NCBI RefSeq assembly: GCF_001645125.1
Contig: NZ_LXKA01000371.1
Span: 1 to 64,000, forward strand
Source of the DNA: Paraburkholderia ginsengiterrae
GTDB taxonomy: Bacteria; Pseudomonadota; Gammaproteobacteria; Burkholderiales; Burkholderiaceae
Direction of reading: 5' to 3'
Length of the DNA: 64,000 bases
Positions 3,425 through 48,153 of the stretch are shown one piece after another (within the stretch, counting starts at the first letter, position 1; each line of letters begins with the position of its first letter). The notes under the pieces were generated by a model. It ran no database searches. It saw nothing but the letters and a program-made list of their open reading frames with translations, and had not been told where the DNA came from. Position numbers and translations under genes: made by a program.

Positions 3425-3747
3425 TCGTGTTTTTCTGATTTAATCTGCTCATCCCTGTCCTCGGTGGCATGGACGCTGCGACGTCGCCAGCGGCGACGTT
3501 CGGAAGGAATTCCTTCTTCGACGACAGTGTTCACGTGTCCGCTTATTCGTTTAGGTGGACACGATACTCCCAGGTGCTTTACCGGACTTCAAGATGGCTT
3601 GTCCGGCCGCTTACCATTGAACGGTCGATCGATGCGTGTATGCCTAAACGGCGATTCGCAGACTTCACTGTTCGATGGAGGGGAAAGTCTAGAATCGCCG
3701 CACAGCCAAGCGAGTCTCAGCGAACCGCCGAAACAGAAGTTTATGCG
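3425..3747. other. Gene-poor spacer between convergent genes
   Basis: No convincing gene is seen between the DUF5677 gene and the PLD-type gene, which converge here. The overlapping open frames on the plus strand do not resemble proteins I know. Confidence 0.4.
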
Positions 3748-22889: not shown

Positions 22890-23137
22890 TTTCTTCCCAT
22901 TGGTATGTAAAGCGCATTGCACTATGCCACAGTGCAGATTACAAAGACGCAAGTTGTGCGGAAATATAGGCGCTATTGCACCACGAGATGCACCACGTGC
23001 ACGCGCATCGCAGCACGGAACTATCGAAAAACCCAGATTCGAAGAAACTGCATGTTTGCTGCGACGGCCCGCGCATTGCCGCAAAGCAGACACACCGACG
23101 CTCACCTTCTCACGGCCGGAGAAGAGCGCCGACCCAA

Positions 23138-25615: not shown

Positions 25616-27180
25616 GCGGCCTCCAGAATATTTTTACCGGCCGCCGTGAGACCGTTCTCAACCATCAAGTGGATATCAACGAGAAAATCAATTGCGGGCG
25701 TGAGCCGCGGGTTCGTTAGAGTCGGTGTGTCTTTCTGCCTCATCCGCACCTTCCCGTCGTCTGCTTCGATCAGGAACGTATAGTCGCCCTGCATTCGTAG
25801 CTTCTGGATCGCCACCCACAGATGGCGCTCAATGATCCGCTCACGCAACAGACAGCTTAACAATTGGGCGATCGGCTCCTCGGAGCGCGCCTTGAAGAAT
25901 TCCAGTTCGGAAACGATAGATGGGAGATAAATCGAACGCGAGAGAACAGGCAGTTCAGTCCTCGCCCGTTCCAGTTGCTCCTTAAAGCGGCCGTAGAGTA
26001 CGGCCAAGAGTCTCAATGCGTTTGCAGCACATTCGCTGGTGCTTAGACCAACGTCGCTAGCTCCGGCAGTAATCGCCTCGAGCAACGTACATTCGCTCGT
26101 TGCCTCTTCGGACCATGCGTTGTCGGCAATCTCGATCGAGTCCACCAGGTGCTGCCAGGTCGGAAGATTCTGCCCGATTTCCGAAGTAATACTCGGAATG
26201 ACGTTCGTCAGCAACCGTTGCACTGACATGCCGGAAGGACTGCCACCCAAAACGTCCAACACATACTTGAGAAGCGCACCATAGCACACCTGAAGCATAT
26301 CGTTCGCGTGGTACACCAGCCAAGCGAATGCGTGAGGCTCCGCTTCGCCTGGGACGGCGGGCAACAGTTCACCAGAGGAGTTATGAGACGAATAGAGCCT
26401 CCATCTGACGTCCCATCGGTTGGGCCAGTAGCCGAGGTTCTCTGCGGTTAACAGCACCAGCCTAAGTGTACTGCTGCGTCGCATCGCACCGGCATCCGGG
26501 TCACGCACATGTCCGAACAGGACGTCTCTGTAAAGCTGACACTCGTCACTGTCTTTCGTAATAGCAGAAGGCAGCATGCTCGCCATTCGCTTCAGTTCGC
26601 TCCGCTGGACAACACCGTCCTTCACCGCATCCAGGAAGATCTTGCCGGCACGACCGATTGCGGCAGAGAAGGCTTTGGCAAGGCGTTCGCCGGTGTCCCT
26701 GGTGGGCACTGGGATCTCGTGCGTCTCCAGATACTCTAGAAGGCCGATCTCCTCGATCTGCGAACCATAGGCGGCACCAAACGCACCAAACTTCTGCTTG
26801 AGATATTGGGGCTTGCCGCTTTGCCGGTCGGTGTAGCGGGAAAAGGTGATTCCGCTTCTGCTTCCCGCCTGAAGCGCTCGCTTTGCCCAACGACTGCCCG
26901 CAACTCCCCTCGCATCGCCATCGTCCTGCGCAACGAGCGCGTATAGCGCTTCCGCACGCCGCAGGAAAAGGCACCACGCGTCAACGGACGTATTCCTGAT
27001 CGACCTCGCGTAGTGGTCCGCCAGCCAGACGTAGAACCCATAGTAGCGCACGCGCAATGTCACGTTGCTGATGCCGGGAAGCAATCGCTGGTAGAGTGCC
27101 ACGCTGGTTGTTTGCATTCCGAGCGGGTCGAGTCCGCTCTTTTCGTCTCGGTCGGTCCATTCCGGATGGCCCGTCCCCAT
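25612..27180 (-). CDS. Unknown protein paired with the PLD nuclease
   Basis: About 522 residues from the ATG at 27180; a TTG six codons upstream is possible. I do not recognise the family. Near the start, after GLDPLGMQTTSV, it has LYQRLLPGISNVTLRVRYY followed by a GFYVW segment. A similar L-x-PGI-x-x-x-T-x-R-x-x-YY theme occurs at the start of DUF6361-type proteins found in defence loci, so a distant relation is possible. The rest is mainly helical. Overlap with the PLD gene (GTGA) indicates joint expression and probably a complex. H-NS-type genes stand on both sides of the pair. Confidence 0.65.
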   Translation of the reverse strand: MGTGHPEWTDRDEKSGLDPLGMQTTSVALYQRLLPGISNVTLRVRYYGFYVWLADHYARSIRNTSVDAWCLFLRRAEALYALVAQDDGDARGVAGSRWAKRALQAGSRSGITFSRYTDRQSGKPQYLKQKFGAFGAAYGSQIEEIGLLEYLETHEIPVPTRDTGERLAKAFSAAIGRAGKIFLDAVKDGVVQRSELKRMASMLPSAITKDSDECQLYRDVLFGHVRDPDAGAMRRSSTLRLVLLTAENLGYWPNRWDVRWRLYSSHNSSGELLPAVPGEAEPHAFAWLVYHANDMLQVCYGALLKYVLDVLGGSPSGMSVQRLLTNVIPSITSEIGQNLPTWQHLVDSIEIADNAWSEEATSECTLLEAITAGASDVGLSTSECAANALRLLAVLYGRFKEQLERARTELPVLSRSIYLPSIVSELEFFKARSEEPIAQLLSCLLRERIIERHLWVAIQKLRMQGDYTFLIEADDGKVRMRQKDTPTLTNPRLTPAIDFLVDIHLMVENGLTAAGKNILEAA

Positions 27181-27480
27181 TCTCTCGTTGTCGGCCAAGT
27201 CTCCCCCGCTATTCGTTGTTTTTCTGTCAGGTCGCTATCCCGCGATTTGTGCGTCCAGAGCCTGCGCTCCTGCGATAGCAAGATTATGCCAGCCCCCACC
27301 GGCACCAATTCATCGCGCCATTTCGTATTTTCACCTTGCGTCATGCATCAGGCCGCCGAGAAATCTCTTCCGGCGTCTGTTCGGAAACTCTCATCTAGGA
27401 CCGTTGGTGACGAGCGGCCGTGCCGCGCTACGCGAGGCAACCTGAAACTGTCGCCAAGGTCGAAAGACGGCTACCGCGGC

Positions 27481-30530: not shown

Positions 30531-32516
30531 TCAAAGCCACCAATGCGGGATCAGCCCAGCGTCAGGCGCCTTCCAGTTGGCTGCTTTGACCGTATCAGGC
30601 AGTTCACCCCAAATGGTATCGTCGGCATGGTCGAGAACGATAATCTGGCACTTATAATCCGTTGCCCGGAGGCCCATTTCGAGCACCTCAAAAATTCGTC
30701 GGGTCGCAACGAAATCCTGATCCCGCGTCCGCCTCAGTTCGACCAGATGCTCAGCGTCCGTGTCGAGCTGATTCGCACCTGTTGCGGCACTTGGAAAGTA
30801 CACTTGACTCGGCTGATCGATGACGAGAAAGTTGAACACTGGTGAATTCGAGCGCTCTCGGTCAGACAAGAATTCGTGGATAGCGAGGAACGTTGCGATG
30901 TGATACCCCATCCAGTTCTCTCCGCTCCCGACCTCCCAAAGGTATTCCTTCTTGCTGTTCTCTCCTGCACTAAAGCTTAACGTTAGTTCTTGCTTGTCGA
31001 GTCCGACGTTGCCTCGTTTTTCGAGCTTGAACTCATCGGCGTACTTGCCAATGAGGGCGGCGAGCTTATTGTCAACGGTTTTCTCCCTCGCTTCCTTGTT
31101 TACACCGGTAAGATATTTGGCAACCTCGTCGAGAAGCCCGCTGACTCGTTCGATCTCTTTCGTAAACTCGTCTCTGCCCCGCACAGCTTCAATTCCCATT
31201 AGCAACGCCTGGATCCGCCCGAGAAGAACGTAAACCTTGCTTAACGAATCTCGTGTGGCGCTATCGGTCCTCTGCAGCCCCACTCGCGCAGACCGAGCCG
31301 AATGAAGCTTGCGCTGCGCGTCCACGAGCGCTGTCTTCGCAGCCTCGATCTCCTTATCCACGATGGGGCTCTCGAAGAGTGCGTCCGAGAGCTCTGAAAT
31401 CCGCTCCATCTCTGTTGCAAGGTGGCTGATGACGGTGTGGTGGCTGTCGGTCGCGTTGCCGCAGACAACGCATGTCCCTTGCTTCGACAGACTCGACTTC
31501 AGCCAGTCGAGGTTCACAACGCGGTTGCGCTCAATCTCAACCGCGTCGCTGAATTTTTGGGCCCGCTCCGACAGTCTTTCGAATCCACGGATCTGACGGC
31601 GTAGATCGTCTACAGTCGTCTGTGCCGCTTCTTCTTCGTCTTGAAGTTGTTTGTAGCGCTCGTTAGTAAAGCCATAGTCCGGCGCCTTGAGAGTAGACTC
31701 CAACTCACCCTTGGCATAACGCTCAGCCAACAATTTAAGAGCGGCAACGCGCGCATCGGTACCATCAACGCCTGTCGCTTCAACCATTCCCAGCTCAACG
31801 GCGAGCGACCACAAACGCTCAACCTGGCTCTCCCATGATGACATGACACTTTTGCGAGCCTCCTGCTGCTTTAGCAGTCGATCCAGCTCCCGCAGAAGCT
31901 GAGCGTGCTCGCGCTCCTTCATGAGATAGGTGCCATCGATGATACCGAATGCGAATGGCATCACCTTCTTTAATCGCTCTTTGTGGTCGTAAGTGTCCGC
32001 CTTGAAGAACAGCGTGTTCGGGTTGGCGACGATGTGCTGCGGCAAAAAGTTGAACGCAGCGAGATCTCGATACGACGGACGTCCATCGTGCTGTTTGACC
32101 TTATCACCCTCCTCAAGCGAAAGATTCGTGAGTCGGACGAGGTTATTGAATCTCTCTTTGAATCGCGTGTCGTTATGCGTGTATTCCGGGACCTCGGGAA
32201 GCTCCTCTTCATACGGTGCCAGATAGAATTCGTTGCTGGTCTGCCGCGAACCGGGAGTGCGCCGTGCGACCACGAACGACTTTCCGCTGATGTTCACGCG
32301 CAGGCCGAACCAGGACACGCTGTCGCGAATCTTTCCGACAGGAATCGCGCAGCGACTCGCACCCAGACAGTAGTCGATAATCGAGATGATTGATGACTTG
32401 CCTGTCCTGCTTCGCCCATAGATGATGTTGACTTTTCCTGGCTCGAAAGAAAGCGTATGTATGCCATTTTCCCTGTTCACTGGCCAGAGGATGAGTTCCT
32501 CGATGTGAAATTGCAT
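30531..32516 (-). CDS. ABC-3C system ATPase (DUF3732 type)
   Basis: A 661-residue Rad50/SMC-like ABC ATPase. Walker A is GRSRTGKS (34-41). A long coiled coil carries a zinc-hook-like pair CVVCG (C349, C352) in its middle. The signature-like segment VGSGENW (~529-535) and Walker B FNFLVIDQPS (D567) close the ATPase. The DQPSQVYFP ending of Walker B is typical of DUF3732 proteins. It is the last gene of a three-gene unit with a middle component (2 bp away) and a Cap4-like protein. This is the described ABC three-component (ABC-3C) conflict-system layout, in which the ATPase is thought to sense invading nucleic acid and trigger a nuclease. Confidence 0.88.
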   Translation of the reverse strand: MQFHIEELILWPVNRENGIHTLSFEPGKVNIIYGRSRTGKSSIISIIDYCLGASRCAIPVGKIRDSVSWFGLRVNISGKSFVVARRTPGSRQTSNEFYLAPYEEELPEVPEYTHNDTRFKERFNNLVRLTNLSLEEGDKVKQHDGRPSYRDLAAFNFLPQHIVANPNTLFFKADTYDHKERLKKVMPFAFGIIDGTYLMKEREHAQLLRELDRLLKQQEARKSVMSSWESQVERLWSLAVELGMVEATGVDGTDARVAALKLLAERYAKGELESTLKAPDYGFTNERYKQLQDEEEAAQTTVDDLRRQIRGFERLSERAQKFSDAVEIERNRVVNLDWLKSSLSKQGTCVVCGNATDSHHTVISHLATEMERISELSDALFESPIVDKEIEAAKTALVDAQRKLHSARSARVGLQRTDSATRDSLSKVYVLLGRIQALLMGIEAVRGRDEFTKEIERVSGLLDEVAKYLTGVNKEAREKTVDNKLAALIGKYADEFKLEKRGNVGLDKQELTLSFSAGENSKKEYLWEVGSGENWMGYHIATFLAIHEFLSDRERSNSPVFNFLVIDQPSQVYFPSAATGANQLDTDAEHLVELRRTRDQDFVATRRIFEVLEMGLRATDYKCQIIVLDHADDTIWGELPDTVKAANWKAPDAGLIPHWWL

Positions 32517-32518
32517 GA

Positions 32519-33007
32519 TTAATTTGTCAGGAATCTGCTGTAGAGCTGGGCTGTAGACTCACGCGCATACCAAATGGCGAGGCGGTCTATTGCCTGCAAC
32601 ATTTCAGGTGGCGCCTTGGTTGGCTTGCTGCCCTGTGGCCATCTGGCGAAGTTTATGGAGAAGACTAGATTCTCTTCGTCTCTCGCGTCCGTTCGCAAAA
32701 GCTTCGCCGCACACGCAAGGTTGAGCGCGCGACCTGTGACCGGGGCAAAGGCGCTTATCCTTTCCCGAAAGTCGGCCTTTATCTGCGGGCGTTCTGACAA
32801 GACGGCGTGCAATGGCGTGTCAAACTGACGTCGTCTGACCTCATCACAACTCGCCTGATGCCATACGATCGGCAAGACAAGAAGCAGCTTAAGGAAGTCC
32901 GGTCGTTCGGTATGCGCAGAGGATTCCTCAAATGCCCGTACAAATGTCGTCAGGAGCAAGCTGGCAAGTGCGCTGTTGTGAATGAGGTTTTCGTCACGGA
33001 CCTGCAT
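32519..33007 (-). CDS. ABC-3C system middle component
   Basis: A 162-residue protein matching the 'three component ABC system middle component' type by size and pattern: an N-terminal HNSALASLLLTTFVRAF segment, then FLKLLLVLPIVWHQ, then helical repeats. Its ATG overlaps the stop of the upstream Cap4-like gene (TAATG), and 2 bp separate it from the ATPase gene. In these systems the middle component is thought to link the ATPase to the effector. No catalytic residues are expected or seen. Confidence 0.8.
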   Translation of the reverse strand: MQVRDENLIHNSALASLLLTTFVRAFEESSAHTERPDFLKLLLVLPIVWHQASCDEVRRRQFDTPLHAVLSERPQIKADFRERISAFAPVTGRALNLACAAKLLRTDARDEENLVFSINFARWPQGSKPTKAPPEMLQAIDRLAIWYARESTAQLYSRFLTN

Positions 33008-34233
33008 TACGATGCCTCTCCGTCGCTATCATCTTTGGCTGGTGCGAAGGCATCATCCCAATACACAAAAACATCGTCTGCCCGGCGGTTCGCGAGGTCA
33101 TGGTAGTGCCCCAGTGTGAAGTACGGTTCGCTTGTCTCTCGACCATCAAGCGGCGCGCGGTGGTCACCACTCAAAGTATCTCTGGCGATCTTTTTTGCTA
33201 TCGCCATGCCATCACCCTCGTCGATATCACCTTCGAACTCAAGGTATTCATCTCTGATGGCCCGCCAGCGTTGATGAAGCGCGCCATCGCGAGCACTCCA
33301 TGCCCGCTGCAAGACTATCCCAGCGTTGAGTAGCCGGATGCGTTCGGAATAAAAGCTCCAGTAGTGACTTAACGCCCGCGTGCAGTACTCGTCGGATAGT
33401 CGGAGGTGTTGCAATTGTGCGATGAAGAGGAGATCCTTCGCGTCTCCTTTGTGGTACTCGCGCCATGCGATGGAAGCGAGGCTGCGCTCTAGGTACCGGT
33501 CCACCCGATACGCGTTCATTTCCGACCGCAAACGTTCGGCGAAGGGGGGCTTTCGCAACCAGGCTGGTTCACGGCTTATCCATGCCGACTGACAGCAATC
33601 GACTAGCTGCCCTAGCAATCCACGGTAGATTTCCTCCCCTTTGTCGACCAGGTCATCCGTTAAATGGAACAGACGAATCGTAGCGTCCTTGATCCGAACG
33701 CCATCGACCGTTCCGCTGGAGTCCACCAGTTCGATTCGCTCGATGACAAAGCGGAGGGACGCATCGTCGAATCCGCTCACAGCGGCGATCTCCGATTTAT
33801 CGTTCTCACCGACAACAGCCGCTTTTTCTCTAATCTCGGCGATGCAGGCTTCGACCTCCTCAGGCGTGGTTGCGTCACTCAGACGTCTTGCCATCGCCTG
33901 TACAGGGACAGATTTGTTTGTTACGAGGTAATATCGGATTTCGCTGTACTGCTCCCTTGCTTTGACCGCGCTGTCGAGCCAAATGTGAATCGTGTGCCAG
34001 AGATTTTTACTACCGTCCTGATAGGGCTGGCCGCTCTCTTTGATCGTATGCTTGTCTTGCTCGAAGACAGCGTCAATTGTTCCGTCGTCACTCATCCTCA
34101 GTTCAACAACGTCGTCGCCGGTCTCCACACCGATCAAAATGTTGCCGTGAACGCTGGAGAACATACGGTGAAGCGCGCGTTGAAGCTGATAGGTATAGCC
34201 GGCGATCTTTGTTCCCGCCTCGGCAGTTACCAT
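33007..34233 (-). CDS. ABC-3C system effector-type protein with Cap4-like nuclease domain
   Basis: About 408 residues from the ATG at 34233, which follows a GGGGCGGGG purine run; upstream starts at 34266 (ATG) and 34296 (TTG) are also open. The N-terminal domain reads GTKIAGYTYQLQRAL, then GVETGDDVVEL (E37, D40-D41) and VFEQDKHT (Q59, K61), the pattern of Cap4-type dsDNA endonucleases of the PD-(D/E)XK fold. The C-terminal ~200 residues are helical and match the ABC-3C C-terminal-domain proteins. First gene of the unit; the nuclease presumably cuts DNA when the ATPase is triggered. Confidence 0.8.
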   Translation of the reverse strand: MVTAEAGTKIAGYTYQLQRALHRMFSSVHGNILIGVETGDDVVELRMSDDGTIDAVFEQDKHTIKESGQPYQDGSKNLWHTIHIWLDSAVKAREQYSEIRYYLVTNKSVPVQAMARRLSDATTPEEVEACIAEIREKAAVVGENDKSEIAAVSGFDDASLRFVIERIELVDSSGTVDGVRIKDATIRLFHLTDDLVDKGEEIYRGLLGQLVDCCQSAWISREPAWLRKPPFAERLRSEMNAYRVDRYLERSLASIAWREYHKGDAKDLLFIAQLQHLRLSDEYCTRALSHYWSFYSERIRLLNAGIVLQRAWSARDGALHQRWRAIRDEYLEFEGDIDEGDGMAIAKKIARDTLSGDHRAPLDGRETSEPYFTLGHYHDLANRRADDVFVYWDDAFAPAKDDSDGEAS

Positions 34234-34612
34234 AGGCCCCGCCCCCGAAACTAGTCTGTTAAACATAGTAAGTATTAACCGTTCAGTTTCGCTCAAAATC
34301 TGCCGAGGAGGATACCTGTGTTTTTATACAGTCGTGTCGGGCGAAGCTTTCATCCACGGCTAGTCACCGTGGCCAAAAGTCCTTCTGATCGCCAGAACTA
34401 TGCGTTCTGAAACACCGATCAAACCGACATCACCGCGCGCGTATATCGCGTCGGCCGCGACCGGAGTTCGTCAGACGGTGCGGCACTCGCCCCAACCTCC
34501 CGGTAATCGACGCCAACGATATCACCCAGGAGATCTGAACCGTTGTCAACCGGCGTGAATAAGCGGGGGCCATTGTTCGCTAAAGCACTGACTTGCTCCA
34601 TGGATTTTCCGC
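34234..34612. other. Spacer between the two ATPase modules
   Basis: No gene recognised. It contains the promoter region of the ABC-3C unit, and the Rad50-like gene of the next unit ends at 34613 on the same strand. A short minus-strand frame at 34419-34601 has no recognisable content. Confidence 0.4.
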
Positions 34613-37600
34613 TTATGAGGATGACTCGCTAGGTAGCGGCAGAGATATGCGCTTGAATCTGTCGTTCCCCATGAACTCGAATTTTCGCTGGAACAGTGCC
34701 GCTAGCCGAATGTCGGCGGTAGCGAAGAAGACCTGCTTCCGGGTGCGGAGGGCAATCTCCCGCAGGTAGTCCAGGAACGACAGTGTGTTGAGGTCGTCGA
34801 TATGAGCAACAGGATCATCGATGAGAATGACTGGTGGTGCCGATTTGGCGCTGTCGTTTAGCGCAAGGAATATGGACAACGCGAGGGCAGCCCGCTGGCC
34901 AGTGCTCACCTGGGTAACGGCGTGCACCTGCTTATTCTCGCGTCGAATGATGAGTGATTCTTCTGTGAAATCTCCCAGCTCATACTCCTGAGGGGAGTGA
35001 ATTTGTGCGAAGACGGCACTTACCTTATCCTTTATCGCACCGAACGCATCAGCAGTCGCACGCTCCAGGGAGTACTGCTCTACAACCTTCGACAGGGTCT
35101 CGCTCGCTCGAAGAAGGTTGGCGCGCGTCGTTGTATCCGCAGCCAGGTGATCGTTTGCCGTCTTGAGCTCGAGCGTCTTCTCTTCGATGGCAGTTCTCGC
35201 TTGCTCCTCAGCTTGAAACGCATGCTGAGCCTTATCGAAAGCTAGCAAGCAGGCTTCCAGCTGAACCTGAATCTCCTCGATACTCGTACTCGGAGCCACC
35301 TGCAGGAGACGCGCAACTCCATCCAGCTCCAGCAACGCGTTCTCCGCCTGGCGTTGGGCTCGCTCTAGTACTGTGATTTGTTGCGTAAGGTTCACCCGCT
35401 GCAATTGCTCATCAAGCACTTCCGACACCAGGTCTGTAACATCTCGAGCAAGAGTTTTCGCCTGCTCCTGCTCGTTCTCTGCCACCTGCATCTCACTGCT
35501 CGCTTGTTCGCGCAAAGCGCCGAGTGCCGCCTCAATTACCGCTTCACTGACGGGGTCAGCGTCCGGCGGCAGTAACGGCGTTGCATTCGAATCACGCGTC
35601 CTCTCCCAACTTGTCCAGTCAACACCCTGTAGATCAAGCTGGCTTAGGGCATTCCGCCGAGACTGTAAATCTGAGTTGGCGATACTCAAGTCAGCAACCG
35701 TTCTCCGCAGGTCCTCCTGTAGCGTCCCACATGGTGTCGATGCCACCGATTCTGACGCCTCTGCGTACTTCTCCAAGGCATCGAGGATGGTCACGTCCTG
35801 CCGACACCGCAATGTCTGCTCCTTGGCTATTTGCGCATTGCGCCTCAGACTTTCAGACGCACCAGCGCCATGAGACGCGACTAGCGCCTCCAGCTTCGCA
35901 ACCAACTCGGGCGGCGAGTGCTCGGTCTTACACACCGGGCACAGGGCCGCGTCGCCACTACGTTCGATGTAGGCAACTGCGGCATCGTGGAGGTCTCTTC
36001 GGAGCGCGTCAAGAGACTGCCCCAGCTGGATGCTATGGGATAGGGCGAGGTCAGCTATCCCCTCCTGCTCTTGGGCAGAATCTAGTTTCTGCTCCGCGAG
36101 TTCTCGCGCGTCAGAAATGTTGAACGCAGCGTACTCGGCCGTTACCGGAGGCAGCGTTGCGCTGGGTTGATCTCGCAGCAATCGACGAAGGCTTGAAGCT
36201 CGTTCCTCTGCCTCACGAACACCGGACGCGAGTGCAGGTACTCCGGCCTCCAATAGCCGCAACCATTGCTCAAGTTGTGCCTGCTGAGCTTCATTCGACT
36301 TCGCTCTGGCTTGAGCCTCAGAACCTCTCTTCAATGAGGCCTCGTACCTTTCGTGAAGAAGCTTCACAGAGGCTAAGGCCTCGCGCAGTCGAGCCAGCCG
36401 ACGTTCGACCTTCTCGCGAGTGATCGGTGTCTCTGATACGGCCGACTGGAGTAGCCTCGTGGATCGAATCAAGGTGTCGAGCTTCTCTCGCGCTCCTGCA
36501 TCCAACGAACCGCTGTCCGCGCCAACCGACCACGCAGGCGACAATCGAGCAAGTCCATCGCGATACGCCGCAAAAAGAGTGTTTGCCTCAGATGGTGCCT
36601 CGCGGAGCCGCTTAACCTCTGCCTCGAGTAGTTCAACTGCTCGGATCTGATTCGGCAAGCGTTCGTTGAGATTGCGCAGACGCGTCTTTACATCGTCGTT
36701 CAGCTTAGAGAGGTAGTCCCAGAGCTTTGAAGTCTCGGGCCCAACGAGCAGCTTACCCAAATCTTCCCGGATGTCCTCGTGATTGGCATCGGACGATAGT
36801 CGGAACGCCGCGTCAGTGTCGAGAAAGTTGAAACGCGAAAAGCCCTGGCTTATCGCGTTGGACTGATAGTCTGCTCGCCCATACCAAAGGGTGTTCCTCG
36901 CCTTTAGTACCGGTGCAGTCGCGGGCGCCTTGACCGCCTCCCGCGTTCCCTGGTCGTTTTCCAGCGTTCCAACGATGTCGGCGAATGGCGCATCCGGGTC
37001 CCGACGTACCCGGCCGCAATAAAGTGCCTCGATAGCCTCCAACAGAGACGTCTTTCCGGTCCCGTTTGCGCCCACGATGAGGTTAACGTCTCCGAACGCA
37101 AACGACTTCCCCTGGTTAACACGTCTGAAAGACCCGACTTTCAGGTTACGGAGAAGGCCGTTCGCAAGGGGATCCGCCTTCAGAGCGGTCTTCGACGCTG
37201 GAGGCACTGCCTCCGCCTTGAAGGCTCCTCCGTTTGCGATCTGGTCGAGCGCTGTTTTACGTGCAGATTGCTCGATCAATGAACCGAGAGACGCCTCTGC
37301 TAGGAGGCCGGCCCACGTCACACCGACATCAACTACCTGCGCAGGCCCGGAACTTTCGTTCGCAGCCGGTTCTTGCAGACGCAGAACGAGGTCATCCGCT
37401 TCAAGCACGAACTTCCGGGCGAAGTGTCTGTCCGCCTCGATGCGCGCCTTGGCCTTTCCAAACTGGTCGCTCGTTACTGATTTCGGGCCGGCCAGGAAAT
37501 AAAGGTAACTGTTCCAACGCAGGTCACTGTCGGGCGAGAAGAACCCCGCGCCGAGCAGATTCTCCTGAAAGCCCGTCAAATCCTGAGAACGCTCGACGAC

Positions 37601-37741
37601 CGTATCGGATAGGTCAACATAGGCAACCGCGTATGGCTTGTCTCCGTAACGCAGCTCGCCTCGCATGACACCATTGCCAAGGTCTTCGACATGCTGAAAA
37701 TGCTGCGAGATCACCTCGCGCACTGAATCAATGCTGGTCAT
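34613..37741 (-). CDS. Rad50/SMC-like ATPase with an extra N-terminal domain
   Basis: A 1042-residue ABC-type ATPase. Residues 1-190 form a separate domain with a WNSYLYFLAG segment followed by RIEADRHFARKFVL. From memory this resembles the middle component 1 proteins of ABC-3C systems, here fused to the ATPase. Walker A is GANGTGKT (224-231). A long coiled coil spans ~330-900 with a zinc hook CPVCKTEH near residue 602. The signature segment STGQRAALALS is near 946, and Walker B VILIDDPVAHID (DD at 975-976) is followed by a D-loop-like turn. Its ATG overlaps the nitrilase-like gene's stop by 4 bases, so the two are one unit. A DNA-sensing defence role is inferred. Confidence 0.85.
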   Translation of the reverse strand: MTSIDSVREVISQHFQHVEDLGNGVMRGELRYGDKPYAVAYVDLSDTVVERSQDLTGFQENLLGAGFFSPDSDLRWNSYLYFLAGPKSVTSDQFGKAKARIEADRHFARKFVLEADDLVLRLQEPAANESSGPAQVVDVGVTWAGLLAEASLGSLIEQSARKTALDQIANGGAFKAEAVPPASKTALKADPLANGLLRNLKVGSFRRVNQGKSFAFGDVNLIVGANGTGKTSLLEAIEALYCGRVRRDPDAPFADIVGTLENDQGTREAVKAPATAPVLKARNTLWYGRADYQSNAISQGFSRFNFLDTDAAFRLSSDANHEDIREDLGKLLVGPETSKLWDYLSKLNDDVKTRLRNLNERLPNQIRAVELLEAEVKRLREAPSEANTLFAAYRDGLARLSPAWSVGADSGSLDAGAREKLDTLIRSTRLLQSAVSETPITREKVERRLARLREALASVKLLHERYEASLKRGSEAQARAKSNEAQQAQLEQWLRLLEAGVPALASGVREAEERASSLRRLLRDQPSATLPPVTAEYAAFNISDARELAEQKLDSAQEQEGIADLALSHSIQLGQSLDALRRDLHDAAVAYIERSGDAALCPVCKTEHSPPELVAKLEALVASHGAGASESLRRNAQIAKEQTLRCRQDVTILDALEKYAEASESVASTPCGTLQEDLRRTVADLSIANSDLQSRRNALSQLDLQGVDWTSWERTRDSNATPLLPPDADPVSEAVIEAALGALREQASSEMQVAENEQEQAKTLARDVTDLVSEVLDEQLQRVNLTQQITVLERAQRQAENALLELDGVARLLQVAPSTSIEEIQVQLEACLLAFDKAQHAFQAEEQARTAIEEKTLELKTANDHLAADTTTRANLLRASETLSKVVEQYSLERATADAFGAIKDKVSAVFAQIHSPQEYELGDFTEESLIIRRENKQVHAVTQVSTGQRAALALSIFLALNDSAKSAPPVILIDDPVAHIDDLNTLSFLDYLREIALRTRKQVFFATADIRLAALFQRKFEFMGNDRFKRISLPLPSESSS

Positions 37742-39498
37742 GTCTGTTCCAAGGTTTCGTTCGGATCAGCTGAGAGGATGTCTCGCTCATCCATCAACGC
37801 GTCATCAAAGCGGGTCATGCCAGGTAATGGTGCAAATCTCAACTCACCGAAGCGCCGGTAAAGAATGCACAGGCGCGTTTGGTGTGGTCCACCCGCCCGT
37901 CGCAACAGGTCGATAAGCATGGCCGGTATATTCTCCAGCTGCCGGGCCCCTGGCGCCTCCCCGAGATAGCAGATGAGGCCGGGCCTCCCGTCAGCGCAGC
38001 GAACATTGAAGTGGCACGCCCCGGCAGTCCACCCAATCTGCGCGTGGCTATCCGTGCCCTCAATCTGAGGGGGCCATGTCGGTCGAGTATCGAGCTCGTG
38101 GCGAATGTTCGCTATCATCTCGAGCCGGGCGTGGCGAAACTGCACTGCGCCCTGGCTGGTATCTTGTGCAACCGTGATCCGACGGACCACTTCGTCGGAC
38201 TCGATGCGAAACGAGTCGATGTTCTTTAGGCTATGCCAGTCGTCCTTGCCGACGATTGCACCGGCGGAAAGCGCCAGCAAGCGCTCTATGTTCAGGGCGT
38301 TCTCGCCGTCCACGTGCGCAAGTGCGGACCTTGCCTCCGCACTTGCGCGAAGTAGTTGATCGAAACCAGCTTTGCGCGTTTCGCCTTGAGCTCTCCATGC
38401 ACCGCCGATGTTGTCCCACTCATAACGGACCACCGCGTTCGGCCCGTTCTTGTTGGCAAGAACGGCTTGCCCCCTAGTGACGACCTTCGGAACGCGGCAC
38501 TCGAAGACCGCCTCGTCATAGTCAAAAAGAAGCGCATGCCGACGCTCTTTCATGTGGGTGTAGTATAGGCCGAGCCGATGGTTGGGAAGGACGATGTCGT
38601 CGATCTGGGTACAAGCATCCTCCGGGCAATACCAGGTTGAGCCGCCAACAGCCGGCCAAGTCTCCGTATGCCCGTTGTCATCATGCTGAACAATCGTCCT
38701 GGCCCAGTTCAAGCACAGGATGTGGCACTCCGATATCCTCGGGTCGAGATCGAATGCTGTCTTCCGATACTGTCGGTAAACGCTATTACGAGGATCAGGG
38801 TTCAGTTGGATGTGAATGAGAGTGGACCGGTCGACGAGGTCGCTGACATGCGCGTCATCCAGTGCAAAGGCGTCTGAACAGATGAATGCCAAGGTACTCA
38901 AGGTGCCGCAGCGCCCGCGAAATCTGTAGACCCTAGTCCCACGCTTCAGCAGACCCTCTTCGAAAAAGAGGTCGTCTCGCGATGGGTGAGTCTTGAACTG
39001 AACCAGCGCCACCAAACGTGAGTTTCCATCGGTGCGCCTTGTCGCAAAGAGCAAGACCACCGGGTCAAGCAATGGTCGATCCGCGGCCAAGGCGTCGAAA
39101 GGCTCGTGGACAACCTCGCAAGAAACAGCAACATCGCCTTTGAACTGAGCCAATTCCTCTTGGTGGATGCTCTCACAACCAAGTACCCACAAGGCACCAA
39201 GTGGTGGAACAATGCCTTGTTCAACTAGTAACCTGATGGCAGACCAAGGCGTAAAGTACTCTGGCGCTACCGCAAGGTGAGCTCCTCTCTCGTTGGCAAG
39301 CTTTGCAAATGCAATCGCTTTTCGAGCGTTCAGGTCCTGGTCGACCCCACCAATCCGCGCACCACTTGCAAAGATTGGACCGCTCGGCTGAAGAAGCAGG
39401 CAGGTATAAGAGGCCTCTGTTGGGCGAAGCATCTCCAAGTCAGGAGACTCCAAGTCGAGCTGTGCCAGCAACTCGCGAACTTCCCTAACTTCCATCAT
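37738..39498 (-). CDS. Nitrilase-superfamily (carbon-nitrogen hydrolase) fold protein
   Basis: A 586-residue protein. The first ~300 residues carry the three catalytic signatures of nitrilases in order and at normal spacing: E80 in VAPEYFTPW, K169 in VQFKTHP and C207 in LAFICSDAF. This triad hydrolyses or transfers amide or nitrile groups. The C-terminal half is unlike known nitrilases and may bind the partner. Metabolic nitrilases have ~260-350 residues, so this one is much larger. It is the first gene of a two-gene unit with a Rad50-like ATPase (4-base overlap). Nitrilase domains are also known in a defence setting (fused to a reverse transcriptase in DRT type 1). It could be the effector, for example an amidohydrolase or NADase-like enzyme; the substrate is not predictable. 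Confidence 0.75.
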   Translation of the reverse strand: MMEVREVRELLAQLDLESPDLEMLRPTEASYTCLLLQPSGPIFASGARIGGVDQDLNARKAIAFAKLANERGAHLAVAPEYFTPWSAIRLLVEQGIVPPLGALWVLGCESIHQEELAQFKGDVAVSCEVVHEPFDALAADRPLLDPVVLLFATRRTDGNSRLVALVQFKTHPSRDDLFFEEGLLKRGTRVYRFRGRCGTLSTLAFICSDAFALDDAHVSDLVDRSTLIHIQLNPDPRNSVYRQYRKTAFDLDPRISECHILCLNWARTIVQHDDNGHTETWPAVGGSTWYCPEDACTQIDDIVLPNHRLGLYYTHMKERRHALLFDYDEAVFECRVPKVVTRGQAVLANKNGPNAVVRYEWDNIGGAWRAQGETRKAGFDQLLRASAEARSALAHVDGENALNIERLLALSAGAIVGKDDWHSLKNIDSFRIESDEVVRRITVAQDTSQGAVQFRHARLEMIANIRHELDTRPTWPPQIEGTDSHAQIGWTAGACHFNVRCADGRPGLICYLGEAPGARQLENIPAMLIDLLRRAGGPHQTRLCILYRRFGELRFAPLPGMTRFDDALMDERDILSADPNETLEQT

Positions 39499-40975: not shown

Positions 40976-42301
40976 ATGAGTACGCTCGACGATCGCTTTC
41001 CTGACAGTAACAGGAACCGGTTTTTCTCGTCCGGAGAGCCTGGTGAAAGACCAAAGGGACGTTTTTATGCGGCCTTCGAAGTCGCAGAGCCTATAGAGAA
41101 CGAGGAACGGGGGGAGCCAGTTTACCTCGAGTGCGCTTTTGCAGACGACGTTGACCAGCTTGTCGACACTCAGATGGAGCCTGGGCGATTTTGGAACAAG
41201 GTTTCACTATCGGTGCTCGCGCTCGACGACGAAAGTGGGATATATGCGAACATCGGCAACAGCGAGCCCGGCGATATCGTATGGTTCGAAGTCGTGGTCA
41301 GTCCGGCAACGGTGAACGAAGACAATGGCATGCAGTATGGCCAACTTCTTGACGCCGGAGAACGTGTTCATATTCATTTCAGGAAGTTCAGAGGGTCGAC
41401 CTCACAAGGCTCCCCCATCCCGCCTCACTACTGGTTGAAGGGGAATCCGGACAGGGAGTTGAATCCCAATGTCCTCGGCGGATACTCATCGATGAAGAGC
41501 GCGGGCGTGGCTGTCTTCGACGTCGGCCAGGGCGCCAGTCAGGCGCTGATGTACGAGGATAGCGGCCATTTCTTTCCGATGCTCTACGTCGACGTTGGCG
41601 GCGGTGTGCTCCAGAACCTGTCCACCTTCCCGAAAAACTTCAAAGGATTTTGTCCGCATGACGTGCCGATTATCCTTTCCCACTGGGATTGGGACCATTG
41701 GTCGTCAGTTTGTCGATTTCCCGATCTCCTGAAAAGTGACTGGATTGCTCCCCTCCCTCCCCCGAAGCCGATCCAGCAGTCGTTGTCATGGATTCTGCGA
41801 GGCCTGGGGCGCCTGAGCTTGTGGGTGCGGGGGATGCCTCCGACGTACCGCACCAAGAGCATGCTTCTCGAGTTGTGCACGGGAAAGACGACGAACGACT
41901 CCGGAATCGCGGTGACGTTGTTTGGCGGCGCCAGGGGCACCAAACGTTGTCTGTTGCCTGGCGACGCTGGATACCGCTATATCCCGTCGGTTGTGGCAAA
42001 TGAACGGTTTAACGCTTTATCCATTACGCATCACGGCGGGCGACTGCATTCCAAACAGATTCCGATACCAAAGCGCGGGGCACGCGCGATGTGTTCTGTG
42101 GGAAGCGGGAACTCATATAAACATCCATTTTGGGAGACCATAGATGCGCACCATGACGGCGGATGGCCTACTCCCATATCGACGGGACACTATGGAAGTC
42201 GCCCAAGTCACGTCTTTCAGCCATGGAACGGCCCTTTGAGAGTCGTATCGGACGCTTGCCCCTTCGCCCATCCATGCAGTGTGGGGATTCCATCCATTTA
42301 G
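40976..42301 (+). CDS. ComEC-type metallo-beta-lactamase-fold protein
   Basis: A 441-residue protein. Residues ~1-170 are a beta-rich domain of unknown type. Residues ~175-430 are an MBL hydrolase fold: GVAVFDVGQGASQA, LYVDVGGG, the metal-site motif LSHWDWDHW (H236, D238, D240, H241), CLLPGDAGY and LSITHHGG. The second His of the usual HxHxDH is Asp, a variation common in ComEC/Rec2-like proteins. No membrane segments, so it acts in the cytoplasm. The ribosome site GAGGG lies 7 nt upstream of the ATG. It converges with the unknown gene at 42463. Nuclease or phosphodiesterase activity on nucleic acid or nucleotide signals is plausible. Confidence 0.7.
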   Translation: MSTLDDRFPDSNRNRFFSSGEPGERPKGRFYAAFEVAEPIENEERGEPVYLECAFADDVDQLVDTQMEPGRFWNKVSLSVLALDDESGIYANIGNSEPGDIVWFEVVVSPATVNEDNGMQYGQLLDAGERVHIHFRKFRGSTSQGSPIPPHYWLKGNPDRELNPNVLGGYSSMKSAGVAVFDVGQGASQALMYEDSGHFFPMLYVDVGGGVLQNLSTFPKNFKGFCPHDVPIILSHWDWDHWSSVCRFPDLLKSDWIAPLPPPKPIQQSLSWILRGLGRLSLWVRGMPPTYRTKSMLLELCTGKTTNDSGIAVTLFGGARGTKRCLLPGDAGYRYIPSVVANERFNALSITHHGGRLHSKQIPIPKRGARAMCSVGSGNSYKHPFWETIDAHHDGGWPTPISTGHYGSRPSHVFQPWNGPLRVVSDACPFAHPCSVGIPSI

Positions 42302-43560: not shown

Positions 43561-44757
43561 TCAGAGAGTAGACAGATATCGGTCGAGGATAATATGGGTA
43601 AGCTGCTCGCCACGTAACGACAACGCGTCAAGATCTGCCTGCCGCATCGCGGCGAAATTAGTTGGATAGTCCTTCACTTGCTCACGGCGCACCAGGTCCG
43701 GCGACGCATAAGGCAACTGTTCGTCCATCTGGCCCAGATACACCATGCCGAAGCCCTTCAGCAGTCCGTTGCGCGCGTATTGATGCAACCGGCTATAGGT
43801 TGCATCCTGTACCTTGCGATGGATCGTCTCGAAAGACAGCTTTACGCGACTGATCCACCAGAACGGACTGGACTCACCACCGACCTGCCCTGCCCCCGCA
43901 TTCAGACTGATGATATGCGTCGCGTTGAAGCTGTTCACACTGATGCCCGAGTTTCTGCCCGGTTCGAGGACGGTTACGCCGAGGTTTTCGAAGACGCCAC
44001 CGTCGGTGAGCACTACCTTCTGCGCCGATGTCCTGTTGCCTCGGACAAAGGAGAATTTCTGGATCAACGGCGGTAGCAGCAACGGAAACGCCGCCGACGA
44101 CGCAACAGCACGGGCAACGGGAATATGGTTGTCTTCAATGCGGCCATATCGCCAGCCTCCTGATGCTTCGGAACCAAAGCGAAATGCGGTGCCCGTGCGC
44201 AGATCACAGGCATTGATAATGACCTCCACGCCCTTCCACCGGACGTCTTTGATCACTGTGTCGCCGAAGATCGTCCGTGCGAGCGCATTTTCGAACGCGG
44301 TCGTCAGGCTGCCCCAGATTGGTAGCAGACCAGATAGCCGGGCGAGACCACTTTCGAGTCGTCTCGTCGGCAATCGCGTGATGACACGTATCACGGAAAG
44401 CACTGCTCCCAACGCACCGAGCGCGAAGGAGGGCAACGCAGTCAAAAGAAGGGTTGCGAAAATCTTGGGTGTTTCGCCGCTGAAAAAAACAGACCTTGCA
44501 ATCGACCCGTTGAAACCCCTGCGCAGGATGTCGACCATCCGCCGGTCGAACTCAGCGAACTCCGCGCCCCAGTACGCGAGGCAGGCGCCAATCACGCTTC
44601 CGCCCGATACGGTGGAAATTACTCTGACCTTGTCCAGCAGCCCGCGGTCATTGAGCGCACGCAGGCATCCAAGATGAAAGGCCATCGCTCGGGAGCCACC
44701 GCCGGAGAGCGCGAGCGTCAAAAATGTCCCGGAGGACTCTCGGTGTGCGTCAGTCAT
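43561..44757 (-). CDS. Patatin-like phospholipase
   Basis: A 398-residue patatin-family lipid hydrolase from the ATG at 44757. It has the oxyanion loop GGGSRA (19-24), nucleophile S51 in STVSGGS and catalytic D252 in LTDGG. Residues ~99-129 are strongly hydrophobic and may contact or cross the membrane. Patatins such as CapV act as membrane-degrading effectors in CBASS. Here the gene overlaps the E2-E1-JAB gene by 8 bases, so it is the last gene of that operon and probably its effector. No cyclic-nucleotide synthase is nearby, so the activating signal would have to differ from CBASS. Confidence 0.85.
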   Translation of the reverse strand: MTDAHRESSGTFLTLALSGGGSRAMAFHLGCLRALNDRGLLDKVRVISTVSGGSVIGACLAYWGAEFAEFDRRMVDILRRGFNGSIARSVFFSGETPKIFATLLLTALPSFALGALGAVLSVIRVITRLPTRRLESGLARLSGLLPIWGSLTTAFENALARTIFGDTVIKDVRWKGVEVIINACDLRTGTAFRFGSEASGGWRYGRIEDNHIPVARAVASSAAFPLLLPPLIQKFSFVRGNRTSAQKVVLTDGGVFENLGVTVLEPGRNSGISVNSFNATHIISLNAGAGQVGGESSPFWWISRVKLSFETIHRKVQDATYSRLHQYARNGLLKGFGMVYLGQMDEQLPYASPDLVRREQVKDYPTNFAAMRQADLDALSLRGEQLTHIILDRYLSTL

Positions 44758-46996
44758 CACGGTCGAATACATTGCCTGCTATTAGCGGCGCTTTCGCTGA
44801 CCCACCGACAATGAGCATCAGAAACTGATGGGCCTGAAAATCGGTACCTTCGAACAGCCGCACCATCGCGCTCCGGTCTGTATGGCTTGGATCGGGTTGC
44901 GAGCCCGGATGGGTATGCCACATGCCGATGAACGCCACCGAGCCTCTCGTTCTCGAGGTCTGTTCTGCATTCATCTCGGCTACGCCGCGGGTGCCGCAGA
45001 TAAAACCCACTGGACTTGCCTGACTATCGGGTGGCGGGCCGCTTACGGCCGTGATCCACACGATCTTGAGAAACCGGTCGATCTCGCCAAACAGGATTCC
45101 GCCTGTCTCCGGCGTGGGGCCCCACATCCTTTCCGACTTGCGCATCCATCCGAGCATTGCAGATTTAGCCGCAGGGGCAAGCCGGATCTGATAGCCATGA
45201 CGTGGATCGACAAGCACATCATCGGATGGCCACGAATACTCCGCTTCAGGCGGTTCATCGGCACGGACGCGTGGGGCCTCAGATGGCTGCATGCCGAACC
45301 CACGGGCGTGCTCATCCGTTCCGCTGGCTAGCCAGCCCGCTGCCACATTCAGCATGCGACCTGTCAGTACTGCGATATCCGAGGCGGAGCCAACGAACGT
45401 GGGATCAGAGCAACCGGGCTCTGGCTGGAACAGACGCGATGCTCGCGCATCTGTCGGCCAGAATTCATCGAGCAGCATGCGCGCGCTCGGCGCATTTGCA
45501 AACGCCAGTTTCATGCGTCTGTCGAGGTCGAGCGCAACGCCCGGCCCGTTGCTCCTGGCCAAGGTCATAAGACCTGCGTCTGCCCGATGCCCGACCGCCA
45601 TTGAGATGATCGGCGCATGGCTACCCGGTCGCTCACGCAGACACAGTTCCAGCGCAGTCGCAACGCGGATCGATGCCGTTGCATTGATGACGACATCCGC
45701 CTCGAACAGTGTCTGCGCGCTCTCGGGACTCCCAAGGACATGAATGATATTTGTTCGCTGCGGATCAGTGTCGATCGCCGGGTTGATGAGGCGGACGTTT
45801 GCGCGTGTTGCGTACGCTTTGTTGACGCCCACCTGGTGTCGGCTAAAGATTTGGCGCGCGAGCACGCCTGGCTTAACGACCGTCTTGTCGTACAACGTGA
45901 GCTTTCCCACACCGGCGCGTGCCAGGAATGTCGCGATCGTACTGCCGAGTGCGCCGCACCCCAGTATGGCGACGTGACGGCCGCGCCAGTATGCAGCTGG
46001 CGTACCGGCATCCCTTGGCACCACGATTTCCGGGCGATCCTCAAGCACCGAACACCAGTCAATGGATGCGCTCTCGGCCCAGTCATTAAACAGGCGCTCG
46101 TCAACTGGATCGTCGTTGGTTCTGGCGAGCACGGCCTTGCGCAACTCGATAGCATCGTCTGCCTTGATGCGCCAGGCCGCGAGATGCTGACGCCGCTCGC
46201 CGCCAGCAATGCCTCGCATGGCCGCGCCAAGCACGAATACCAGCGGCTTGTTCTCCGGGTTGTGCAATGCGCCGATTGTCAGCAGCAGCCGAATGACGTC
46301 AAGCGGGATACCTCGCGCCTGCAGCACGGTCCGCAGCGCCGCGAAGGTCTCCGGATACTCAAACGGCATGTCCGATGGAAGGAGGATCGCAGGCGCGACG
46401 CTCATTTGTGACGCGGGCGATTTGTAGTCCAGCCACTCGCCGAGTTCAACACAAAATTCGTTCTCGCGAACGATGCGGGCATAACCGGCCCAGAAAGGTG
46501 CGGCAGCAACAGGTGTGTTGACGGTCGGCACCACGACCAGCGCCCGACCGTCATAATAGGCGACGGGTGGGTGCAGCGGCAGTCCCACTGGGTCAAGCTC
46601 GTTTAGGGCTGCTGCCCGTAACCATTCGTGCATACGCTGGACGAAGCCGAGCATTCCATCCGCTGGATGCCATTCTGTTTCGGGCGACTGGTAAAGACAT
46701 ACCGTATGCCCCCACTGCACATGCGGGAAGCCGCCGTAGTCGGAATGCGCGAACCAGAGCGCCGGAATCTCGAGAGGGAATGTTGGCGGCACAAAAATCA
46801 GTAAGCGCTCTCGCGGCCGGAACGGAATCCCGCCCGCTGCCACGGTATAGGCGCTGCACGCGACGGAAACCGAGATCCTCAGGTCGGCGCCAGTCGAAGC
46901 CGGCTCCGTGACCTGGACGATCTCAAGCGCGTCATTGGATTTCTCGGCAATCTGCGTCAACTGCTCGAGTGCCCAGCGTTGACCTTCGGTCCTCAT
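44750..46996 (-). CDS. E2-E1-JAB fusion (bacterial ubiquitin-like conjugation enzyme)
   Basis: A 748-residue triple fusion. Residues ~1-135 are an E2-like domain with the candidate catalytic C100 in WGHTVCLYQ. Residues ~335-560 are an E1/ThiF adenylation domain with the nucleotide loop GCGALGSTI (346-354) and candidate catalytic C529 in EPGCSDP. Residues ~595-748 are a JAB deubiquitinase-type metalloprotease with E630 (ETGGILFG) and a perfect JAMM motif (H694, H696, S704, D707). In CBASS, separate Cap2 (E2-E1) and Cap3 (JAB) do these jobs; fused forms are described in other bacterial ubiquitin-like operons. Its ATG overlaps the MBL gene's stop (TAATG). It should attach a C-terminal glycine of some protein to a target and also remove it. 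Confidence 0.88.
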   Translation of the reverse strand: MRTEGQRWALEQLTQIAEKSNDALEIVQVTEPASTGADLRISVSVACSAYTVAAGGIPFRPRERLLIFVPPTFPLEIPALWFAHSDYGGFPHVQWGHTVCLYQSPETEWHPADGMLGFVQRMHEWLRAAALNELDPVGLPLHPPVAYYDGRALVVVPTVNTPVAAAPFWAGYARIVRENEFCVELGEWLDYKSPASQMSVAPAILLPSDMPFEYPETFAALRTVLQARGIPLDVIRLLLTIGALHNPENKPLVFVLGAAMRGIAGGERRQHLAAWRIKADDAIELRKAVLARTNDDPVDERLFNDWAESASIDWCSVLEDRPEIVVPRDAGTPAAYWRGRHVAILGCGALGSTIATFLARAGVGKLTLYDKTVVKPGVLARQIFSRHQVGVNKAYATRANVRLINPAIDTDPQRTNIIHVLGSPESAQTLFEADVVINATASIRVATALELCLRERPGSHAPIISMAVGHRADAGLMTLARSNGPGVALDLDRRMKLAFANAPSARMLLDEFWPTDARASRLFQPEPGCSDPTFVGSASDIAVLTGRMLNVAAGWLASGTDEHARGFGMQPSEAPRVRADEPPEAEYSWPSDDVLVDPRHGYQIRLAPAAKSAMLGWMRKSERMWGPTPETGGILFGEIDRFLKIVWITAVSGPPPDSQASPVGFICGTRGVAEMNAEQTSRTRGSVAFIGMWHTHPGSQPDPSHTDRSAMVRLFEGTDFQAHQFLMLIVGGSAKAPLIAGNVFDRDD

Positions 46997-48153
46997 TACT
47001 TGCCGAACCCGACCTTCGCCGCGGGTGGCGTATTCGTTCCACGAACAGCGGCGACGGCCTTGGCGAGATCGTCTTCGGCTTGCTCCGACAGCGTATAGTC
47101 GCTATCGACGAGGCGGATGCCCGTGTCGGTGACGGTGAAGATGATGGGACGCACTTTCTTCGACGTACTGTATTCGTCGGTGCAGAGAAAATTGCCCGGC
47201 GCATCGACGATTTCCAGATAACGAAACTTCGCCTTCGCATGGGGCGGGTTATCGCCCGGCATGTTCCTGCCGGGTATGGCTGGCGAAGACGACACAATAT
47301 ACGCGCCCTTGCGCTTCCCTGACTTCAGGTCGTCCAGAATATCCTGTTGCTCCACCTCGTCGTTATCGAACATCACTTTCCTGGAACAGTGATGCGGCGC
47401 AAGCAGCACATCCCACGAAAGCCGGCTATCGTTACCGTGCTTCCGGGTCTCATCGAACACGCGGCGCAGCGTAGGATGCGCAAGATCACCGAAGAACAAT
47501 CCAGCCATCGATCGCGTGGAGTTGCCGATCAATATCTGCAGCGCAAGGCTCGTTTCGTTCCGCTTGTCAGCCGAATCATCCTTGAATGGCGCATGGATAA
47601 ACGCGTTGAAACGGCTCCCTACGTTGATACCGTCCAGCAGGGTGACAGGGTTGCCCGGTATCGTGAGAAACGCTCTCGGCAAGCCTTGATATTTCTCTTC
47701 CTTCAGCAGATCGTCATAGCCGAACACCCGTACTCGGTTACCCGAGCCGGGATCACCCTGCACCGCGATGGTCTCTTCGCGCCGCCGCCCGGCTTCTTTC
47801 CTGAAAGCCTGCGCGTCCGCGCACAGATCCTTATGGTATTCGCGGAAGATCCGCGGCGTGTGCCACAACTCGCCGATCGTGACGTGCTTCAGCAGGTTCG
47901 CAAACCCACGGCAATGATCTTCGTCCGGATGCGTGAGAACAAAGCATGAGAGATAGGGTTTGCCATTCCGCTTGGGCAGCTTGGCAATCAGTTCGTCGAC
48001 GACGGGAATCCTGCCGTTGTCGATTTCGTCCGCGAGTGCACAATCATTTAGATCGATCTGCAAGACTTCGCTATCACTGATTACGACGGTGGTGGCATCA
48101 CCACAGCCAACCGGCCAGAATATAAACGACGGTCCATCGACATCCGCAAACAT
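46996..48153 (-). CDS. Metallo-beta-lactamase-fold protein of the E2-E1-JAB operon
   Basis: A 385-residue MBL-fold protein, first gene of the operon. The motifs are WPVGCGDATTVVIS, the metal site LTHPDEDHCRGF (H75, D77, D79, H80), LFFGDLAHP and LLAPHHCSR. As in ComEC-like members, the second His of HxHxDH is Asp. The ribosome site GGAG lies upstream of the ATG. MBL proteins beside E1/E2/JAB genes are a recurring operon type in bacteria; their role is not established, and nuclease or signal-nucleotide hydrolysis are candidates. No small ubiquitin-like gene is seen upstream, where IS3 debris lies. Confidence 0.75.
   Translation of the reverse strand: MFADVDGPSFIFWPVGCGDATTVVISDSEVLQIDLNDCALADEIDNGRIPVVDELIAKLPKRNGKPYLSCFVLTHPDEDHCRGFANLLKHVTIGELWHTPRIFREYHKDLCADAQAFRKEAGRRREETIAVQGDPGSGNRVRVFGYDDLLKEEKYQGLPRAFLTIPGNPVTLLDGINVGSRFNAFIHAPFKDDSADKRNETSLALQILIGNSTRSMAGLFFGDLAHPTLRRVFDETRKHGNDSRLSWDVLLAPHHCSRKVMFDNDEVEQQDILDDLKSGKRKGAYIVSSSPAIPGRNMPGDNPPHAKAKFRYLEIVDAPGNFLCTDEYSTSKKVRPIIFTVTDTGIRLVDSDYTLSEQAEDDLAKAVAAVRGTNTPPAAKVGFGK

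Follow-up and report, generated by a model that had tools for sequence, protein, structure and literature searches.

Within the first 64,000 nucleotides of contig NZ_LXKA01000371.1 from Paraburkholderia ginsengiterrae (assembly GCF_001645125.1), a stretch analysed as a whole and referred to below as the window, two adjacent genes on the reverse strand encode a protein with a nitrilase fold and, downstream of it, a large Rad50-like ATPase. The two genes overlap by four bases, as the initial annotation of this DNA had stated; these read ATGA. Their positions, together with those of the motifs and of the surrounding genes, are collected in Table 1. The window contains no tRNA, and a search for promoters and terminators showed no clear excess. 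Conservation is given below over 31 alignment rows representing 30 distinct records (locus L034 and one of the haloarchaeal plasmids are a single record).

Table 1. Positions of the gene pair, its domains and motifs, and other features of the window
Feature	Position	Strand	Remarks
Nitrilase-fold protein, LmuA-like putative effector	37738..39498	-	586 aa; upstream gene; open reading frame unbroken
SMC/Rad50-like ATPase, LmuB-like	34613..37741	-	1042 aa; downstream gene; open reading frame unbroken
Nitrilase (C-N hydrolase) domain	38437..39432	-	~residues 23-354
Predicted catalytic Glu codon, E80, motif PEY/PEW	39259..39261	-	31/31 rows; aligns with the Glu region of host nitrilases
Predicted catalytic Lys codon, K169, motif Q[FLI]K	38992..38994	-	31/31 rows
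E180, candidate fourth (tetrad) glutamate	38959..38961	-	31/31 rows; assigned from position
Predicted catalytic Cys codon, C207, motif CSD	38878..38880	-	31/31 rows; strand-helix junction by secondary structure
C-terminal half of the nitrilase protein, putative docking part	37741..38436	-	residues 355-586
ATPase N-terminal domain	37157..37741	-	residues 1-195; matches ABC-3C Middle Component 1 (PF20289)
Walker A, GANGTGKTS	37046..37072	-	ATPase residues 224-232
Zinc hook, CPVC	35930..35941	-	ATPase residues 601-604; CPxC in 31/31 rows
ABC signature, STGQR	34892..34906	-	ATPase residues 946-950
Walker B ending DDP	34811..34831	-	ATPase residues 971-977; Asp at the catalytic-Glu place
Separate three-gene Lamassu/ABC-3C	30531-34296	-	316 bases downstream of the pair
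H-NS C-terminal-domain protein, 825-aa phospholipase D (PLD)-like protein (ZacB E=1.7e-10), 528-aa protein (ZacA E=7.3e-6)	22104-27198	-	4-base overlaps
1272-aa protein	12612-16430	-	no Pfam match at E<=0.001; weak PD-Lambda-4_A, E=1.2e-6
Mokosh-like MkoA and MkoB	5635-12071	-	MkoA 1666 aa with NERD, kinase and helicase matches; MkoB E=9.1e-121
441-aa protein with HWDWDHW motif	40976-42301	+	no Pfam (E<=1) or PADLOC (E<=0.1) match
Patatin-like phospholipase, 748-aa E2-E1-JAB fusion, 385-aa protein with weak RTasMBL match	43561-48153	-	E1-E2-JAB and patatin at 43561-46996

The upstream protein has a single Pfam match, to CN_hydrolase, which remains below the threshold (E=0.0064), and none in PADLOC. 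Its predicted structure contains the alpha-beta-beta-alpha fold of nitrilases in the N-terminal part, around the residues E80, K169 and C207 that had been proposed as a full nitrilase triad. These three residues, predicted to form the catalytic Glu-Lys-Cys triad, are unchanged in all 31 rows, as are E180 and the CSD and NW motifs; the farthest rows are only ~19-20% identical to the window protein, yet they retain all four residues. In sequence, the protein resembles classical nitrilases only very weakly. A search of the PDB with the nitrilase profile gave a best match of only E ~0.8, and comparison with the nitrilases of the host (reading frames picked by motif score, with the sequence of locus L046 incomplete there) aligned the Glu region alone (probability 49%, E=0.00017). 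The assignment of the lysine and the cysteine therefore rests on conservation, secondary structure and the alignment to the PADLOC LmuA model PDLC03850. In a library of viral structures, the single match at E<=0.001 was the CN-hydrolase of a Prochlorococcus phage. Beyond the nitrilase domain lies the long additional C-terminal half that the initial annotation had pointed out, which diverges faster, its identity falling below that of the nitrilase half in all nine pairs compared; past residue 370 the block predicted local distance difference test (pLDDT) scores are low, at 26-68.

The description of the downstream protein as a Rad50-like ATPase with a zinc hook likewise holds. It matches SMC_N and AAA in Pfam (SMC_N E=2.8e-10), Rad50 is its best solved sequence match in the PDB (E=3.3e-16), and the Walker A residues, CPxC and SxGQR are invariant over the 31 ATPase rows. 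Its top PADLOC matches are LmuB models (E=7.5e-30), and the PtuA-type ATPases of retron and Septu systems are weak sequence relatives. Canonical Rad50 and SMC proteins carry a catalytic glutamate at the Walker B place occupied here by aspartate: the motif reads DDP in 25 of 25 bacterial rows, while the six haloarchaeal rows (five distinct records) all retain the glutamate as DEP. According to the review PMC10586767, LmuB, a protein of ~650 residues, generally has glutamine instead of the catalytic glutamate; by parallel with that exchange, the aspartate suggests slow hydrolysis. The N-terminus had been likened to a middle component of the ABC-three-component (ABC-3C) systems, and MComp1 is matched in 17 of the 28 family ATPases at E<=0.1 (best 5.1e-6). 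This region had a lone PDB sequence match, at profile positions 84-127 (E=0.00041); it is to an engineered protein and was taken as coincidental. No Pfam match to Kleisin, KITE or Toprim JetD, sought as components of Wadjet JetABCD, was found among the pair and eight neighbouring window proteins.

The two genes are conserved together in other genomes. A profile search of genome contigs recovered 28 nitrilase loci, and a homologue of the ATPase follows on the same strand in 27 of them, the exception (L032) being short, decayed and interrupted by stop codons; the open reading frames adjoining L032 look, by eye, like site-specific recombinases. All three plasmid matches (Polaromonas and two haloarchaea) also hold the pair. 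Across the 31 rows the ATPase starts between 8 bases before and 14 bases after the nitrilase stop, so that the genes abut or overlap. Furthermore, the pairwise distances within one protein track those within the other (r=0.985 over the 30 records, a value reached by none of 2000 permutations), although part of this correlation reflects the common descent of linked genes. The pair is rare, occurring in two of 300 genomes of the host's order, one of them the window's own, and the N-terminal domain of the ATPase was found in the same two genomes (of 300, with at most 10 candidates per genome scored). A sample of the phylum gave two of 299, the window's own and a short nitrilase frame of 278 residues (E=8.4e-4). 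Neither phage records nor two scans of viral contigs contained a match to the pair.

The surroundings of the pair change from locus to locus. Among 165 mechanically chosen neighbouring open reading frames (>=110 aa, at most three per side, 29 loci), clustering yielded no family present in more than three loci. Four families reached three loci, one of them common to L014, L017 and L018 (29-44% identity) and the other three haloarchaeal: an integrase (76-83% identity), a nuclease and a helicase (both 89-95%). In the haloarchaeal loci L030, L033 and L034, two extra same-strand genes of 862 and 953 aa lie ~190 bases downstream of the pair; the Natronorubrum record annotates them as a PD-(D/E)XK nuclease family protein and an ATP-dependent DNA helicase, and these neighbours, 89-95% identical, cluster with none from other loci. 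On the plasmid from the environmental species Polaromonas naphthalenivorans (L003), annotated genes nearby include the recombinase GmtY (2542-4044) and HamA with a helicase, Hachiman (6911-11172).

A link to Lamassu is provided by the PADLOC LmuA model PDLC03850 (604 positions), which matches three of the 28 family members at E<=1 (best 2.2e-4); the RTasNitrilase model matches five of the 28 (best E=8.5e-4). In genomes, PDLC03850 was seen once, as the same broken copy (L037, genome G056) in 1 of 200 genomes of the order and 1 of 398 of the phylum, and none was found in plasmids. L037 is a nitrilase/LmuB pair of the PDLC03850 type, disrupted by a frameshift and also by an insertion sequence that interrupts the gene for the ATPase. 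Its nitrilase piece, which Pfam CN_hydrolase does not match at E<=0.1, aligns to the profile of our pair so that the Glu, Lys and Cys of the two coincide (hhalign 92%, E=5.5e-7), the alignment being confined to the nitrilase part with the C-terminal halves unaligned. Its ATPase piece matches the LmuB model PDLC03861 from residue 1, has MComp1 at the N-terminus above the cut-off (E=1.3e-7), and aligns to the ATPase profile of the pair over the middle-component domain and onward into the head with Walker A (hhalign 97.6%, E=3.7e-12). To judge from these alignments, the architecture is already catalogued in PADLOC and the window pair is a divergent clade of the same kind. In addition, C-N hydrolase stands among the predicted LmuA effector domains in PMC10586767, which also describes Lamassu/ABC-3C systems devoid of a middle component. 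The earlier claim of an undescribed kind of defence system was thus too strong. Among the papers listed for nitrilase, amidase or C-N hydrolase in phage defence, SMC or defence islands, no title or abstract opening describes the pair, and no paper searched mentions nitrilase together with Lamassu, with ABC-3C, or with an ABC ATPase and biological conflict; hence the clade itself looks undescribed in the literature searched, while the underlying idea is not new. DefenseFinder includes a 'Lamassu-Amidase' type.

Most likely, the pair is a divergent version of Lamassu, armed not with a nuclease but with an enzyme that cleaves a metabolite. The ATPase would be an LmuB-like SMC sensor with the middle-component domain fused at its N-terminus, and the upstream gene would be LmuA-like, with an amidase of the nitrilase superfamily replacing the nuclease. 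We judge it probable that the two genes form a Lamassu/ABC-3C-type defence system in which the nitrilase effector is held and released by the DNA-sensing ATPase and acts through hydrolysis of a metabolite amide. At rest, the ATPase would hold the effector, the contact being made by the C-terminal half of the effector and the N-terminal domain of the ATPase. The SMC heads would bind a DNA structure arising from phage or plasmid replication, such as ends or hairpins, both of which are tabulated as Lamassu signals in PMC12904381. The nitrilase would then be freed and oligomerise into its active form, hydrolysing an amide in some essential metabolite, be it NAD(+), glutamine or another small molecule, upon which the infected cell would halt growth or die. 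The release-and-oligomerise step is proposed from family precedent: an addendum on three preprints in PMC12409362 describes LmuA as liberated on activation and forming a homotetramer, which switches on its Cap4 nuclease domain, and the nitrilase domain of the reverse transcriptase DRT1 is activated by tetramerisation, according to PMC13275509. The same logic would suit a nitrilase that takes the place of LmuA. A further-reaching reading, which we consider rather unlikely, is that the pair represents a distinct defence clade found across bacteria and haloarchaea. Its SMC-like sensor with the fused middle component would release a nitrilase-superfamily amidase, and this enzyme would destroy a carboxamide metabolite that is essential to the cell, for instance by deamidating NAD(+) or glutamine, in a metabolite-deamidation form of abortive infection; the middle component might have arisen from a restriction-endonuclease-like fold that has lost catalysis.

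Several observations weigh against a Lamassu-type defence system. The PADLOC LmuA models match the window nitrilase neither at E<=0.1 nor at E<=1, which is why we speak of a divergent clade, and they matched none of 10 nitrilase relatives given singly. The full-length nitrilase model is of moderate confidence only, a Pfam search of the C-terminal half of the protein gave no known ABC-3C docking domain, and in the window ATPase the MComp1 match (residues 51-116, E=1.4e-4) falls under the Pfam cut-off. The evidence from PDLC03850 comes from one broken locus, L037, and no intact reference pair. Finally, 27 large neighbouring genes (one or two per locus) from 26 of the 29 loci gave a PADLOC match at E<=1e-5 in only seven of the 26 (L007, L012, L014, L024, L026, L029 and L031), a count that stands beside no control set. 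With these seven loci and the HamA annotated at L003, the defence setting is clear in the window and only suggestive elsewhere.

Other explanations start from the same two proteins. The ATPase could serve chiefly to keep the nitrilase inhibited, as scaffold or antitoxin, in the manner of toxin-antitoxin or retron systems; the trigger would then be loss of the ATPase (e.g. through a phage inhibitor) and not the sensing of DNA. The slow hydrolysis suggested by DDP, the glutamine generally present in LmuB and the weak kinship with PtuA-type ATPases would all agree with this; however, the haloarchaeal DEP and the invariant Walker A and signature residues make a nucleotide-driven function likely, and the gene order, effector first and ATPase second, is that of Lamassu, so we find such an arrangement unlikely. 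An ordinary metabolic nitrilase, against which the initial annotation had already argued, was rejected on account of the strict pairing, the plasmid and island settings, the rarity, and the eight other CN_hydrolase genes above the Pfam cut-off in the host genome.

The same eight genes speak against a module for DNA repair or nucleotide salvage, in which a Rad50-like ATPase and an amidase would process modified nucleotides or repair metabolites outside defence. Although the match to Rad50 and the nuclease and helicase genes adjoining the haloarchaeal copies could be read in this way, the pair is rare, plasmid-borne and set in changing neighbourhoods, and the best PADLOC match of its ATPase is LmuB; we regard a role in repair or salvage as distinctly improbable. 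It is very improbable that the nitrilase domain lacks catalysis and serves as a scaffold that binds peptides or ligands, with the ATPase as effector: the remoteness from classical nitrilases might invite this idea, but four invariant residues (E80, K169, C207 and E180) at ~19-20% identity are not expected of an idle site.

Besides the pair, the window contains a separate Lamassu, Mokosh genes, an E1-E2-JAB gene with a patatin, and a gene of the phage-integrase family (17022-18716), so that the defence island invoked in the initial annotation is borne out here. The separate Lamassu comprises an LmuA-like protein with CTD7 (E=8e-8), an MC3 middle component (E=2.6e-17) and an LmuB with DUF3732 (E=2.5e-44). 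A single five-gene operon with the pair is not supported, since its LmuA and LmuC are unmatched by hhalign to the nitrilase and to the N-terminal domain of the ATPase. The two ATPases, both matching the LmuB model PDLC03859, align with each other only over the Walker A stretch, and the three proteins of this Lamassu matched no open reading frame of >=60 aa in the relative loci up to L034 at E<=1e-3. The genes at 43561-48153 have the look of a defence locus, either of the CBASS type or one based on ubiquitin-like conjugation. The HWDWDHW motif of the 441-aa protein resembles the metal motif of metallo-beta-lactamases.

If a nitrilase is the effector of a Lamassu-type system, nitrilase effectors would now stand behind two unrelated partners, the reverse transcriptase of DRT1 and an SMC-like ATPase. 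The nitrilase of the pair, which stands alone while a second gene encodes its sensor, would offer a simpler protein for finding the substrate of such effectors. Systems of this type, in a clade that includes haloarchaeal plasmid copies, may be under-counted, as the PADLOC LmuA models largely miss it, matching 3 of 28 members at E<=1.

Several known systems share parts of this design. As in Lamassu/ABC-3C (LmuA-LmuB with or without LmuC; DdmABC), an effector gene with its variable enzymatic domain at the N-terminus is followed by an SMC-like zinc-hook ATPase that is best matched by LmuB models and has a middle-component match, in the window protein one below the Pfam cut-off. In contrast to Lamassu, which has a separate LmuC, the middle component is apparently fused to the ATPase; this protein is 1042 aa long compared to ~650 aa for LmuB, and the Walker B of its bacterial rows reads DDP where LmuB has exchanged Glu for Gln. 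The PDLC03850/PDLC03861 combination, as seen through L037, also has a nitrilase-type effector of ~600 aa and, after it, a large SMC ATPase whose N-terminus matches MComp1, but the full-length profiles barely cross-match with the pair. Nit2, the formamidase AmiF and the glutaminase domain of glutamine-dependent NAD+ synthetase have the fold and catalytic residues in common with the window nitrilase, which is only 9-19% identical to canonical structures of the superfamily and adds the C-terminal half of ~230 aa and a constant partner ATPase. DRT1, a class 3 fusion of reverse transcriptase and nitrilase, likewise employs a nitrilase-superfamily domain as a defence effector, one that depends on oligomerisation. 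In PMC13275509, a monomeric DRT1 with an inactive reverse transcriptase gave neither defence nor toxicity, DRT1 activity led to abortive infection, and its authors suggest an essential amine- or amide-bearing substrate such as ATP, GTP or NAD+; nitrilase fusions are also known for the unknown classes 1 and 5 of reverse transcriptases (PMC8934634). Unlike DRT1, the pair has no reverse transcriptase, the Pfam scan of the 586-residue reading frame giving the nitrilase match alone, and the partner of its nitrilase is an SMC-like ATPase encoded by a separate gene.

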